Part shown: in pieces, positions 2,357-39,907 of the stretch
Layout: each line of letters opens with the position of its first letter
Position numbering within the stretch: the first letter of the stretch is position 1
NCBI GenBank assembly: GCA_028565635.1
Contig: JAOXYB010080276.1
Location: 1 to 40,394, forward strand
Length of the DNA stretch: 40,394 bases
Reading direction: 5' to 3'
Origin: Phoronis ovalis
Taxonomy: Eukaryota > Phoronida > Phoronidae
Translations under genes and position numbers: made by a program
The notes under the pieces: generated by a model
Seen by the model: only the letters and a program-made list of their open reading frames with translations
What the model was told of the DNA's origin: nothing
Database searches by the model: none

Positions 2357-14232
<11,876 letters not shown>

Positions 14233-21304: not shown

Positions 21305-21310
21305 TTTATT
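21305..21310 (-). terminator. Poly(A) signal of the peptide-precursor gene
   Basis: AATAAA on the minus strand, about 95 nt after the stop codon of the precursor at 21405. It gives a short 3' UTR typical of small prohormone genes. Confidence 0.6.
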
Positions 21311-21404
21311 TAGGTAAAACAATACAAATAAATATTCCTCAAAATGAGCTTTCATTTACAACTTTTATCATAGCACAAACAACAACTTCACACAAAACAT
21401 AAAG

Positions 21405-22091
21405 CTACCTTTTTCCCCAGGTTAAATATGAGCGAACAGGTGGTTGAGGTTTTCGTTCTTCAGGACGAGCGTATTGTGCTTGTAACTGATAACCGAAACT
21501 TGGTGTTCGCTTGTGTTTTCTTTTATTTGATAATTTATCATTTTTTCTATCATTTACATTATATTTTCTATTTGACCTTAAATCGTACTTATTATTTTGT
21601 TGAAATAAATATGGATTAAAGCCAGTTTTGTAACCATTATCCCTCTGGAAATTTGAAAATGTATCTCTGATATTATTTTTGGTTAAATCTTCCAACCAGC
21701 TGTTTGAATACCTTGGTGACTGCAGTATGATCTTCGTCCATATACTTGACCCACCTCTCCTAGGATTTATATAGCTATTTTGATTCCGTATGCTTATGTC
21801 GGACGACTGAGGCTTAGCTTTCAAATGACGTAGCACGTCATTTAAACTGAACTGTCCATTTAAGGCGTCGGATCTTGCATAGTGTTCACTTGAGTCTCTT
21901 TTTATACCAAATGTCCTATCATCTTCATACTCATATGGAATATAACGAGCGTTAACAACCGTACTATTAATAATCAACAAAAACGTGATTTCCAGAAAAA
22001 GAGATTGTAATACATTTCTAACGGCGTATCTGTAGTAATGTTTATTATTTGTTCCAAAGCGGATCCGTGGAACCGCAGCAGCTGCGCCCAT
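21405..22091 (-). CDS. Putative amidated neuropeptide precursor (unassigned family)
   Basis: The exon begins at 22115 after the minus-strand acceptor TTTTCATTTCAG; the first ATG in frame is 22091-22089, giving 228 residues. Residues 28-48 form a hydrophobic segment (LQSLFLEITFLLI) with a likely signal cleavage after VVNA, although the stretch before it is unusually long for a signal peptide. Basic processing sites are IKR (63-65), RR (111-112), NKRKHKR (189-195) and a terminal GKR. Cleavage after residue 195 and amidation would release a 30-residue peptide ending PPVRSYLTW-amide; cutting at R220 would give SYLTW-amide. The middle is rich in N, S, Y, R and K. It fits none of the molluscan or annelid peptide families I know; kinins end WG-amide and APGWamide precursors carry many copies. 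The upstream exon is probably non-coding but could add in-frame residues. Confidence 0.72.
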   Translation of the reverse strand: MGAAAAVPRIRFGTNNKHYYRYAVRNVLQSLFLEITFLLIINSTVVNARYIPYEYEDDRTFGIKRDSSEHYARSDALNGQFSLNDVLRHLKAKPQSSDISIRNQNSYINPRRGGSSIWTKIILQSPRYSNSWLEDLTKNNIRDTFSNFQRDNGYKTGFNPYLFQQNNKYDLRSNRKYNVNDRKNDKLSNKRKHKRTPSFGYQLQAQYARPEERKPQPPVRSYLTWGKR

Positions 22092-22189
22092 CTTCAAATT
22101 ATCAGCCTTTAAGGTCTGAAATGAAAAAAAAATGTAATGTTGCTGCTTTTTTAAAGAACATGACTGAATGAAAAATATTGTTTGCTGTT

Positions 22190-22830
22190 ATTGTGTCACT
22201 AAACCTCGAGATATCTTTTCATTTGGTTGCTTGTCTTAAAATTCTGCTATTATACATTTACGAATTTGAAAATGTGAAATTGATAGTATATGAATAAAGC
22301 CAACCATCGAGATGCTAAAGAGTTATTGGACACAATCGAAACAATGACAGCAATACATAGATTCCAGGATAAGATTAACAAGAATCTGTTCCATGCACAA
22401 AACAAATATTTAGGCCATTTAGAGATGAAGGTATTCATCCCGGTATTCATTAACTCAAATCCATACAAAATAAAAATCGACCAGTGCTCCCCGCAGAATA
22501 TGCCTAGCGCATTCAAGTGGCTATTCAGGGTACGCTTCTTTCAAATTCATGTTATTTCCTTATGTATCAAAACCGTAAATTTTAAACTTTTATAGTTATC
22601 ATTGTGTCACTAACAGGACATAAGTTATCCTCTTGATTGTGGTGTCTTAATTGAATAATTTCCATAAGAGGAAAAATCATTTATTGTCATCCTTAAATCC
22701 GTAGTAATTAATTTGTTATTAAGGGTACGCTTCTTTTTAAAATAGTACCATTTTCTTATGCAGCAAACCCGTCGCTAGACTATAGACTATGTGCTCCTAG
22801 TTGATTGATTTCCAGCAAGAATGGTAGTTT
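22190..22830. repeat. Degenerate direct repeats in the intron of the peptide gene
   Basis: GGGTACGCTTCTTT occurs at 22527 and again at 22722, each followed by a similar stretch (TTCCTTATGTATCAAAACCG against TTTCTTATGCAGCAAACCCG). ATTGTGTCACTAA occurs near 22190 and near 22600 with related downstream sequence. The pattern suggests old duplication within the presumed first intron. The open frame at 22290-22595 on the plus strand has no recognisable domain. Confidence 0.5.
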
Positions 22831-34690: not shown

Positions 34691-37600
34691 TTATTGGTTT
34701 GTTTTGTCCACAAACATTTCACCTAGTACTGAAAGTCTTTGGTGGAATGGCTGAGCAGGACATGTAAACAAGTCTCCTTTGTATCTACTGCTTTTTTGAA
34801 ATATACTTTTTATCTGATTTTCTATGTTTAAACTGCTATTCTTCTCTGTTACAACTACAGTTTCAGTTTCATCTACACTTTCACTTTTATTTAATTTATC
34901 TATAGTTTCACTTTCCTCTCCAGATGTCTCTGTACTCAAATCATCATCTGTTTCTGTACTTTCTGTGTCAGGTTTCTCTCCAATTATTTCTTCAATGTGT
35001 TTTTCTTCTGCTTCTTCATCCACAGAAAGGATGACACTCTCACTTGTATCTTCCTTCTCCATATTTTCTTGAAAGGTTTTTGAAACATCAGTATATTCAA
35101 TGTCATACTCAAAGGCTCTCTGTGTATTTTCACTATCACCCACTTTATTTTTTTTCCTTATTTTTCTTCCCTTTCCTGCTTTATATATACTGTCCTCTTC
35201 ATCAATTAAATCTAAAAGTTGCAACAGATTAGCCTGATCCTGAAACAGTTGCAAATCCATCAATTCTTCATCCCGTTGAGCACTACAGCAATACAGAGCA
35301 GCTGCATCTACAGGATGAGCTTCTGTGTTGAATATGTACCCTCCAGCATCAATAATGCACTCTCCATTAGGAGTGTTAATAACTGTTCCATGGCCCCCAG
35401 TGTTATGAATGAAATTTTCAGTATCAAATAGGAGGTAAAGATATTTAGTAGTTTCTGCTAGAAAAAATGATTCCATCCTGTTGTCTAGACTATGGTTTTT
35501 GACATCTTTTACCTGAAATGCAAACAATGTGTTGAGGATCGAATACTCTTATGGTAAAGAAAGTGAACTATGATTTGGGATGTAACATAATGTATCATAA
35601 TCTAATAACAAAGATAATACATGAGCTCCTTGCATTAGATATTACCCATAGATCTTGATTTTCAGAGATCATGCAGAAGCATTGCTTCAATGTAAAAGCA
35701 TAGCATTGTATACTAAACTTTTAAAATAAAACCATAATTTATAGGACCCACATTGTGGAGGTTTTATATTATTCACAAATTGCCAATTTTAAATCCCCTT
35801 TTTGCAGAAACAACACATATTTTATTCCCAACAAACCTTATTTACTATCAAAGCAAAGAAGTAGAATTACTTACAGTTGCATAGCCACATTTGGTTTTAG
35901 TTGAATGTTCTATGGATTCCAAAATGTCAGCACCAAGATCCAGCAGGAAAGGATCTTTAGTAGCTTGATATAAATACATGGCACTTTCAATCAATTCTAA
36001 AAATAACAACAATAATGGTAAATTTATTTCTTTTAACTTGAGACAAGCAATGTAGTTAAAGTTGTTATTTTCTTGAATGACTTACAGAATGTACAATAGA
36101 AGGAAGCTGTTTTCGCAATTAAGTTTTTTTAATAAAAAATACTTGCAAATCTGAATATGAATGTTCTGTTTAATTTTTTCACACTGTAATTTGAATTCTT
36201 ACCAGGTCTAAGTGGGTATCCTTCTCTATTCTGATGAGGTTCATCCTTTACAATGTTATAAAACTCTGGAGTGAAGCCATATTGTTTCCACACCTGATGA
36301 TAGTTATGTATGGTTTTCATTGCTTTATCTGTATCTCCAACCAGACTCTGTAACATCAGGCAATATTTAAAAAACATGGTACATACAACTCCAAAATTGT
36401 ATAATAGCCATCTCACATTATACTACAATGCCTCTCATTGTTCACCAACAGAACCTTTGCACATTTAATGTTTGTATGTTTTGCTTGATATTATATATTA
36501 TAATTATGGCTTCCAACAATCCAAATAGTTGTTTCATTGGTTCTGTTTTAATAGCTTTTTTTTAGTAAATTTTGTCCAAAGCTTTTCTAAGAAAGTACTA
36601 TTCATATTTAAACACTATTTGTAGAAATGTTCATATAGACCCGAAAGAAGTGGTTGATGGCCATCTTTAATCCAAAATGGTGGCAATGTCAAAAAAATAT
36701 TCTTTGATAACTCAAAAAGCGTGAGATCGACTGCAAACAAACTTGAATTAAATATTGCTGGGTTTCTAATTCGAAAACAGTTGTAGAAAATTTAGCATCA
36801 TCTTAAATCCAAAATGGATTCCATGTCAAAAAATTTGTGTTGGAAGCCATATACTGTGTCGCCGTGCAACACTACAGGTATTTTATATTTTTTATAAATC
36901 TTATTAGTGACAAATGCAAGTCTATGAACAGCATCCTTGTTTTAGTTCTCACCCTCTCCTAACACTGTTAATGCATGAGAAGAAACACGGAAATCTAGAT
37001 CAAAATGTTTCTGTGGCAATTAACCAAGACAGTTGGATAATTGGTTTATTTCTTTGCTGTCAGTGTAAGGCTGCAGTTAAATGATCTGGGAAAACATCCA
37101 TAACTGTATTACAAATATTTACTTGCAAACCAGGCCAAAAAGCTTCCAAAGATTGGAACATAGGTAATGTTATAGTTCCTTTCTTCATATGTGTCCACAT
37201 GTACCAATCATCTCTCTTCAAGTATATTTCAAATTTCTTTGTATAATCTGCAACATTAATTGAATCAGCTTATCCTTGTTCACTTTTCACATCAATGCCA
37301 CCAATTTATTTGAAATCAACAAAACTGTGATTTTGAAAAGTTGAAAGACTGCATTCTTTGAAAATTTAATTGTTCATTGCATTATATTTACACCGTTTTA
37401 AGTCAATTATATTTCAATGTGTTTAAGGTGGAGTATAGGTAGAGGGTGCTACTGTTGCATGCATTTTTATCTGTCTATCAAGCCCATTTTTATTAATAAA
37501 CATTCCTGAAGACGAGGTTTAATAGTAGAAATGAAGGATCTGATATGGCATGCAGAATACTATGATTGCTGAACTAAACATCCCCATGCAGCCATGACTG

Positions 37601-39907
37601 TAAACTATTATTAATAAAAATGTAGTGCGAAATGTGCTTGGCTCATCAAATTTTCAAAGTATTTTTTTACATAAAAATCAATCCATTGCTATCAATGAAA
37701 CATACAAAAGTGCGTTTCAGTAAGTCTGTAAATACCTTTGAACATTTCCATAAATTCTGGTATCTGGAAAAGGATGCTTCCTTTCACTAAATATTCAAAG
37801 TATGAATCCACACCTGCTCCTATTCCTGAATCTAGAGCTGTCCACACACCTGTCTGGACATTGATGTGATTGCCAACCTACAAGCAAAACAATTATCTTA
37901 TTTTAGAGTACACATATCCACTTGAACTGACTAATATTTGCACATTGTATTATATGCACCTTTGTGGTTATGTTGTCCAATAATTGCACTTATTTCCGAG
38001 TTTGTGATGTAATATTGTGAAATTATACAGATCAAGATTTGGAACAACTTTTGACATTAATACACTCAGCTACCTTGTAATGCTGTCTTGTGTGTTTGTT
38101 CCAAGGATATAAGTAAAATAATACATATATTTAGAAAGGGAGACATTTCTGTTTCCATTCCCAGGTACACATAGAAGTTTTGTCCCAAGGTTCAGAAAGT
38201 AACTATTAAGTGATATTTATTTTAGTAAGTTCTAACTGAGAATATTTCTTTACCAATCCTATGTCTGATCGAAGATTCCATAGACCTCTCATTGCTTTCA
38301 TAGCCACTCTTTCAAATACTGGATCCCCAGTCAACCTAGATAAAGCTCCAAACTCCACAATAAATGTACCAACACCAGCCGTGCATGTCACAGCAGTCTC
38401 TCCCTTCGGTACACCATAACGCAAGTTAACTGTTCCATAAGGCATTCCAGTAGTGGTGTTAAAAGCTGAAATTAGAAATAATAATAATCAGAGATTACAT
38501 ATTTTCAGCCACAGGGTGTCTGTTCAAAATTGTTGGTAAATTTGCAAATCTGAAGTATGATGAATGGATAAATTATTACCTGGTAACAATCTTCTGGCTA
38601 CATTTTCGGCCATGTTTAGAAGTGGACCAGAACATGGCCAGCTAGGCTCAAGTTGCATACCTGCTTTTGAAGACATTAAATGGGCTGAAATCAAGCCACC
38701 CACAACTACAAATAGGAGAATACTCATTACATATACAGTTACACTGAAATATCCCGATTCTTAAGCCTTTGCAACATTGCTTTAAATAGTTTTACTAACA
38801 ACGTGGGATTGATTTGTATTTATTGTCATATGAATGTAGCTTTAAGCAGACAAATGAATATACATTCAACACTCCAGATAAAATTTAAGGAATACTTACT
38901 TCTGATATTAGTTTCAAACACTGAGGCATTGATGTCAATATCAAAATCTGATGTGTCAATAAGGAGGTGGGCAACTCGTCTAAATTCTGTATAATTTCCC
39001 ATCACAGCTAAAGTGTCCAAAGCATCAACTAAAGTTAGTGAAAAACTGAAAATGAAAAGTAGAATGTTTTATTCTCTGGTTTTGACCATTATATGTCATG
39101 ATTTCTTAATGCGCGTAACACTTTTGCATAAAGTATCTAAAACTTGTTTGCAAACTTAGACACAATTGCAATTATAAAAAGAATCATGTGCCATGCTGTA
39201 TTTTCCTTGTTTATCGTGAAGGGTAATAAAACATCTGAATTCCTTTTATTGTACTGACAATAAATTGTTTTGACATTCGACATTAAAAAAATGATTAACT
39301 AAAAAGCACATAGTTATTGCTACTATTGTAATTTAAGAAAAGCACTTTAACTGTGATTATCTACTGCAAATCATATATGGTGAGTATTTAGGTACATGTC
39401 CATAGGCGAGGTTTCCATAGGAGTTCAAAGACAACTCCCATAAGACAAAATACCTATGTCAACATCGCATGTGTATACAAATCCAGTTCCCTTGCATCTG
39501 TAGTAATATTGTTAATGTCTATAACTTGCAGAATAGGACCCTTTCAAGTTACAGTTTCAAGTCTCATCCAACATGTGAAATTTGAGGGCTGGCTTAGCAT
39601 TCAACACATTGGAAAATATCTGCAGTGTAAATTACTTAATTATAAAAAAAATCTCCCCGTTTATTGTGGGTTGCCATCTGCGCTTTTGCTTGCATAGATC
39701 TTGTATTGTTGGTCTGCTTTTTTTGTACTTCGTTTTGCCTACTTTATTTTTGAATATCACGCTGGAATCTGAAAACTATAAAAAGGTATTTTTTACCTGC
39801 CCCAAGTATCCTGACCATCACAGGTAAGAGGTCTGAGTTCATCATATGGATATGCATAGTTTAGATACCCATTATAGGCATGTTGAAACATAGCTACTAC
39901 TTTGTCC
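34691..39907 (-). CDS. EDEM2: EDEM2, ER degradation-enhancing alpha-mannosidase-like protein (5'-partial)
   Basis: EDEM2 is an ER-lumen GH47 family protein that starts N-glycan mannose trimming for ERAD. Minus-strand exons in gene order: 39907-39797, 39045-38900, 38705-38580, 38465-38254, 37877-37736, 37247-37123, 36347-36203, 35996-35875, 35512-34691. All are GT-AG and in phase, giving about 649 residues after a missing N-terminus (roughly 40 residues, signal peptide). GH47 landmarks are present: [18 protein letters not shown] (the Glu equals human E117), [34 protein letters not shown] and the calcium-site Thr in FNTEAHP. The tail carries a long acidic E/S/T/D-rich insert, longer than the human one, and ends [17 protein letters not shown]; its Cys matches human C558, reported to bond with TXNDC11. 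No KDEL. The stop codon overlaps an AATAAA. Confidence 0.95.
36507..36849. mobile_element. MITE with 12-bp terminal inverted repeats and TA target site
   Basis: TGGCTTCCAACA at 36507-36518 and its exact reverse complement TGTTGGAAGCCA at 36838-36849 bound a 343-bp element, and TA lies directly outside both ends. That is the signature of a non-autonomous Tc1/mariner-type insertion. Inside are two diverged direct copies of a short block (AATCCAAAATGGTGGCAATG near 36669; AATCCAAAATGGATTCCATG near 36806). It sits in an EDEM2 intron (36348-37122) and encodes nothing. Confidence 0.75.

Follow-up and report, generated by a model that had tools for sequence, protein, structure and literature searches.

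A candidate prohormone gene of Phoronis ovalis predicted to yield a single C-terminal tryptophan amide

The minus strand of a 40,394-nucleotide contig of the phoronid Phoronis ovalis (JAOXYB010080276.1, assembly GCA_028565635.1; the whole stretch is referred to here as the window) is the location of a gene for a candidate prohormone of 228 residues. The reading favored here, with a probability of roughly 0.6, is that of a lineage-restricted precursor yielding one C-terminal Trp-amide, either as a 30-residue peptide or as SYLTW-amide. The gene, presumably expressed, would be single-copy, with an intron in the 5' leader and the entire coding sequence in one exon. A leader around residues 28–48 would take the product into the secretory pathway, where a furin/PC-type convertase would cleave after KRKHKR (residue 195) as well as at the KR of the C-terminus. 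That KR would be removed by a carboxypeptidase, and PHM/PAL would convert the glycine to the amide of Trp225. The 30-residue peptide would be the main product, SYLTW-amide could arise by monobasic cleavage at Arg220, and the receptor would be a rhodopsin-type GPCR that reads the amidated aromatic C-terminus.

The probable terminal exon up to the stop, delimited by frame, start context, and acceptor score, spans 21405..22115 (−) and comprises a 24-nt leader and the whole coding sequence. The 228 codons and the stop occupy 21405..22091 (−), with the ATG starting at 22091 in a good context (TTGAAGATGG; A at −3, G at +4) and the TAG stop at 21407–21405; counted from the preceding stop, the frame is open for 260 codons. 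Upstream lies a splice acceptor with a pyrimidine tract, ACATTTTTTTTTCATTTCAG (22116..22135, −). The first base past it is 22115, from which the exon reads ACCTTAAAGGCTGATAATTTGAAG and reaches the ATG 24 nt further on. With splice matrices built from 17 introns of the CTR9 gene in the same window, this acceptor scores 11.0, placing it in the top 0.42% of 4306 AGs on the two strands of the window and inside the range of the 17 CTR9 acceptors. An internal acceptor at ACATTACTACAG was ruled out by its score of −1.0 in the CTR9-intron matrix. The exon coordinates agree with those of the preliminary description, which gave no strand; the strand is minus.

The locus is a genuine gene. In 60 first-order Markov-simulated windows the longest frame had 166 codons, and because none of the 60 reached 228, the frame is taken as real coding sequence. 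Only one open frame in the window is longer, that of 285 codons in a glycosyl hydrolase 47 gene; two overlapping frames across the serine-rich CTR9 tail come next. Codon usage in the 228-codon frame is only marginally like that of coding sequence, at 0.020 bits per codon vs. a maximum of 0.016 among 45 intergenic frames. A possible polyadenylation signal, AATAAA (21305..21310, −), is found 94 nt past the stop, and AATAAA/ATTAAA signals follow the stops of the two neighboring genes at 115 and 248 nt; on its own the signal is weak, because an AATAAA lies that near, within 100 nt, for 18.8% of minus-strand positions. A 101-residue open frame on the opposite strand (22290–22592, +), immediately upstream of the gene, is within chance length for the window and has no Pfam match.

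The window also contains a homologue of CTR9, of the Paf1 complex (2357–14232, +), whose tail is rich in serine, glycine, and glutamate; 17 introns were mapped in it from 2401 to 10700. Its top 20 matches come from gastropods, bivalves, cephalopods, and the annelid Owenia, at 81–83% identity, the best reaching 83% over the query. In a CTR9 tree of 30 rows (the window and 29 of 120 fetched proteins), 17 mollusc rows form a clade at 99/98 with the window outside. The partner of the window is the bryozoan Watersipora, with support of 92/89, which is under the program's threshold. CTR9 groups with lophotrochozoans, probably outside the sampled molluscs. Further features are the glycosyl hydrolase family 47 gene (34691–39068, −), EDEM-like by eye, with three exons matched to Pfam and a weak best match to a named EDEM structure, and an exon with a Rieske [2Fe-2S] domain above the Pfam cut-off for PF00355 (32779–33174, +). 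Two tandem arrays are present, one of an 82 bp unit in 4.9 copies (1–397) and one of a 52 bp unit in 7.1 copies (11512–11881), next to a stretch of N in a CTR9 intron.

Among 5.8 billion proteins, in a database that holds no close relatives of the species, the whole precursor gave 58 word-sharing candidates, none of them at E ≤ 1, and for its last 43 residues no candidate shared three 5-residue words. These negatives are weak, because even the highly conserved CTR9 next door has no match above 83% identity, which means that neither the species nor any near kin is in the database. Pfam has no family for the precursor, the PDB shows nothing but a single match at chance level (E = 0.34), and literature searches on SYLTW, LTWamide/YLTWG-type, and TWamide/SWamide/WGKR strings brought up no peptide that fits, as far as titles and passages show. 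The view put forward previously, that the product matches no known peptide family, agrees with the outcome of these Pfam, PDB, protein-database, and literature searches. Across the assembly (77.4 Mb, 4805 contigs; possibly part of the genome only, to judge from contigs of 10–40 kb), the precursor matches only itself, and therefore it is not a repeat.

The N-terminus of the precursor carries a putative signal sequence (residues 1–48; 21948..22091, −), with cleavage guessed at VNA|RY. Its core, LFLEITFLLII (residues 31–41; 22001..21969, −), has a Kyte–Doolittle value of 2.74 and is the only strongly hydrophobic stretch of the protein, the best 11-mer starting past residue 50 reaching 0.85. The core contains a Glu. 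A hydrophobic leader had been proposed in the preliminary description; such a stretch exists, but it is preceded by 30 other residues, and its role is predicted from hydropathy only. A type II membrane protein, or some other non-secreted protein in which residues 28–46 are an anchor or a mere hydrophobic patch, is quite unlikely, although the basic N-terminus of 30 residues would allow an uncleaved-anchor topology and the best 19-residue Kyte–Doolittle value is just 1.74. On a biological hydrophobicity scale, the best 19-mer gives a flat sum of +4.0, which is unfavorable for an anchor, and VNA|R, the guessed cleavage at 48/49, is an acceptable signal-peptidase site under the (−3,−1) rule.

Basic runs begin at KR64, RR111, RK175, RK182, KRK190, KR194, RK213, and KR227. 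Several dibasic or polybasic sites had been counted previously in favor of an amidated prohormone; they are present, but not beyond chance, with 9 dibasic pairs vs. 6.5 in shuffles (P = 0.17) and 5 KR/RR vs. 3.4 (P = 0.21). The amidated prohormone is still the best reading, to which the dibasic sites add nothing beyond composition. Because the dibasic count is not above that of shuffled sequences, the argument for processing rests on placement and not on number, that is, on the polybasic cleavage site KRKHKR (residues 190–195; 21507..21524, −) and the amidation and cleavage signal GKR (residues 226–228; 21408..21416, −). The precursor ends in KRKHKR|TPSF...VRSYLTW-GKR-stop, which is the general layout of a prohormone, with a convertase site ahead of the peptide and G-[KR]-[KR] behind it. 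WGKR occurs once in the 228 residues, and directly ahead of the stop, as first described. A G[KR][KR]-stop end is found in 1 of the 345 open frames of at least 40 codons in the window and in 25 of 78,366 simulated frames. Given the composition of residues 48–228, its probability is 0.0017, and with an aromatic residue ahead of it, as in WGKR-stop, 0.0002.

The stop itself could be bypassed if AAAAG|GTAGCT were a splice donor, which would make the exon internal to a longer protein and the GKR end an accident of a phase-2 donor; this is unlikely. The donor-like AAG|GTAGCT (21404..21412, −; the AAAAG|GT reading puts the last exon base at 21410 or 21409) scores 5.0, a value reached by 6.3% of 4314 GTs. 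The 17 real CTR9 donors range from 2.3 to 13.1 in leave-one-out scoring, 3 of them falling under 5.0, and the CTR9 donor AAG|GTAGAG resembles the candidate. In this phase, AAAAG|GTAG as a donor gives K-R-stop on its own, so that only W-G is left to explain, and AGG stands directly ahead of the stop in 8 of 350 frames of at least 40 codons. However, the donor is off consensus at +4 and +5, the spliced exon would be ~700 nt long, whereas CTR9 exon cores do not exceed ~240 nt, and AATAAA comes after the stop. On the minus strand from 21360 to 14400, down to the convergent CTR9, there is no continuation exon above background, the best scoring 14.7 vs. 14.6 on the control strand, in a scan that skips acceptors scoring <4, as 3 of 17 real CTR9 acceptors do; the real CTR9 exons in its calibration list score 41.9–61.2.

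If the prohormone reading is followed, the last peptide is predicted to be TPSFGYQLQAQYARPEERKPQPPVRSYLTW-amide (residues 196–225; 21417..21506, −; amide monoisotopic mass 3591.84), and the 30 residues first counted for it are correct. It contains 4 Arg, 1 Lys, 2 Glu, and five Pro. An amidated peptide with Arg and Pro could be antimicrobial, and the precursor a secreted protein or a source of cationic host-defence peptide and not of a signaling hormone. Amidation is common among antimicrobial peptides, and the dibasic sites of the precursor show no enrichment; against this stand the two Glu and a sequence that, by eye, is neither strongly amphipathic nor repetitive, and this role is considered rather unlikely. 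As a prohormone product, the 30-mer probably stays uncut at its internal RK because Pro comes next. SYLTW (residues 221–225; 21417..21431, −; mass 667.33) may be released as a pentapeptide amide: Arg220 has Lys214 six residues upstream, a spacing that fits the monobasic cleavage pattern reported by Thiel et al. (2021; PMC8557429) and makes SYLTW-amide a possible product. Amidated PQPPVRSYLTW would have a mass of 1341.72.

Parts of the processing machinery are found elsewhere in the assembly. An exon on contig C4780 matches PHM structures (E = 4.7e-11), and a similar one is seen by eye on C4158, while other matches to PF03712 look, again by eye, like the related DBH/MOXD enzymes. A furin-type convertase P-domain is present (E = 6e-26), together with a second P-domain match. 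7B2 was not found, but with no genome giving a match as control this negative is uninformative. Matches to 7tm_1 number 148 and those to the Srw GPCR model 29, all of them matches and not genes; the Srw model presumably covers FMRFamide- and sex-peptide-type receptors. With PHM, furin-type, and GPCR matches in the assembly, the proposed cleavage, amidation, and receptor steps would be possible in this animal.

The predicted peptide resembles members of several known families, and it departs in at least one tested defining feature from each of MIP/WWamide, leucokinin, CCWamide, APGW/RGWamide, and proctolin. With MIP, allatostatin B, and molluscan WWamide it would share the C-terminal Trp-amide, and FITW-amide is close to YLTW-amide; the closest ending seen to SYLTW-amide is that of the abalone allatostatin B NWNQFITWamide, given in a passage of PMC6523705. 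However, these families have W-x(4-7)-W-amide and several copies per precursor, whereas here R, V, P, and P occupy positions 5–8 ahead of the last Trp, and there is one copy. A search of the assembly for a multi-copy MIP precursor with the DNA pattern W-x5-W-G-[KR] gave 1 match vs. 3 in the control, which is chance; mollusc MIP peptides as queries gave nothing, a negative of no weight. The aromatic-x-x-Trp core of leucokinin and lymnokinin is present as well, but in FxxW-(G/S/A)-amide kinins the amide is one residue past Trp, as in AFHAWGamide (in the passage seen of PMC5996578), whereas YLTW-GKR would put it on Trp itself. CCWamide precursors, according to passages of Thiel et al. (2021; PMC8557429), have a signal, a spacer, a cleavage site, and then a single amidated peptide at the C-terminus. 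This layout and the amidated aromatic end are as predicted here, but the CCWamide/agatoxin-like peptides have eight conserved Cys, and the candidate precursor has none. APGWamide and RGWamide likewise end in Trp-amide, yet they have repeated GW-amide, in contrast to a single TW-amide with no Gly ahead of Trp. RYIPY (residues 49–53; 21948–21934, −), directly past the guessed signal cleavage, recalls arthropod proctolin, probably by coincidence. The proctolin motif is RYLPT, from which RYIPYEYEDD differs at 2 of 5 residues, with no basic residue directly after RYIPY, and proctolin is not amidated, unlike the predicted peptide.

A single amidated peptide at the C-terminus had been called unusual in the preliminary description. 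This does not hold, as CCWamide precursors and, in a passage of PMC9545775, the sea-anemone LRWamide precursors carry one copy each; such precursors are not rare, and the arrangement itself is unsurprising. The comparison of families drew also on passages of PMC7270403 and PMC8398477.

Spiralian neuropeptide receptors listed without a ligand in passages of Thiel et al. (2021; PMC8557429) are the trissin, kisspeptin, ETH, QRFamide, and proctolin types and FMRFamide type-1, and an amidated aromatic C-terminus is expected there for the FMRFamide type-1 ligand. That the 30-mer or SYLTW-amide is the natural ligand of such an orphan receptor, within a GPCR expansion activated by W/Y/F-amides (FMRFamide-type-1-like or proctolin-type), and descends from a MIP-like ancestor that lost copies as well as the first Trp, would be a very long shot. 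As it stands, the precursor is one more taxon-restricted candidate prohormone, predicted from sequence alone, and an amidated, lineage-restricted prohormone is plausible. As a new Trp-amide from outside the sampled molluscs, the peptide would be a concrete ligand candidate for the spiralian orphan receptors.
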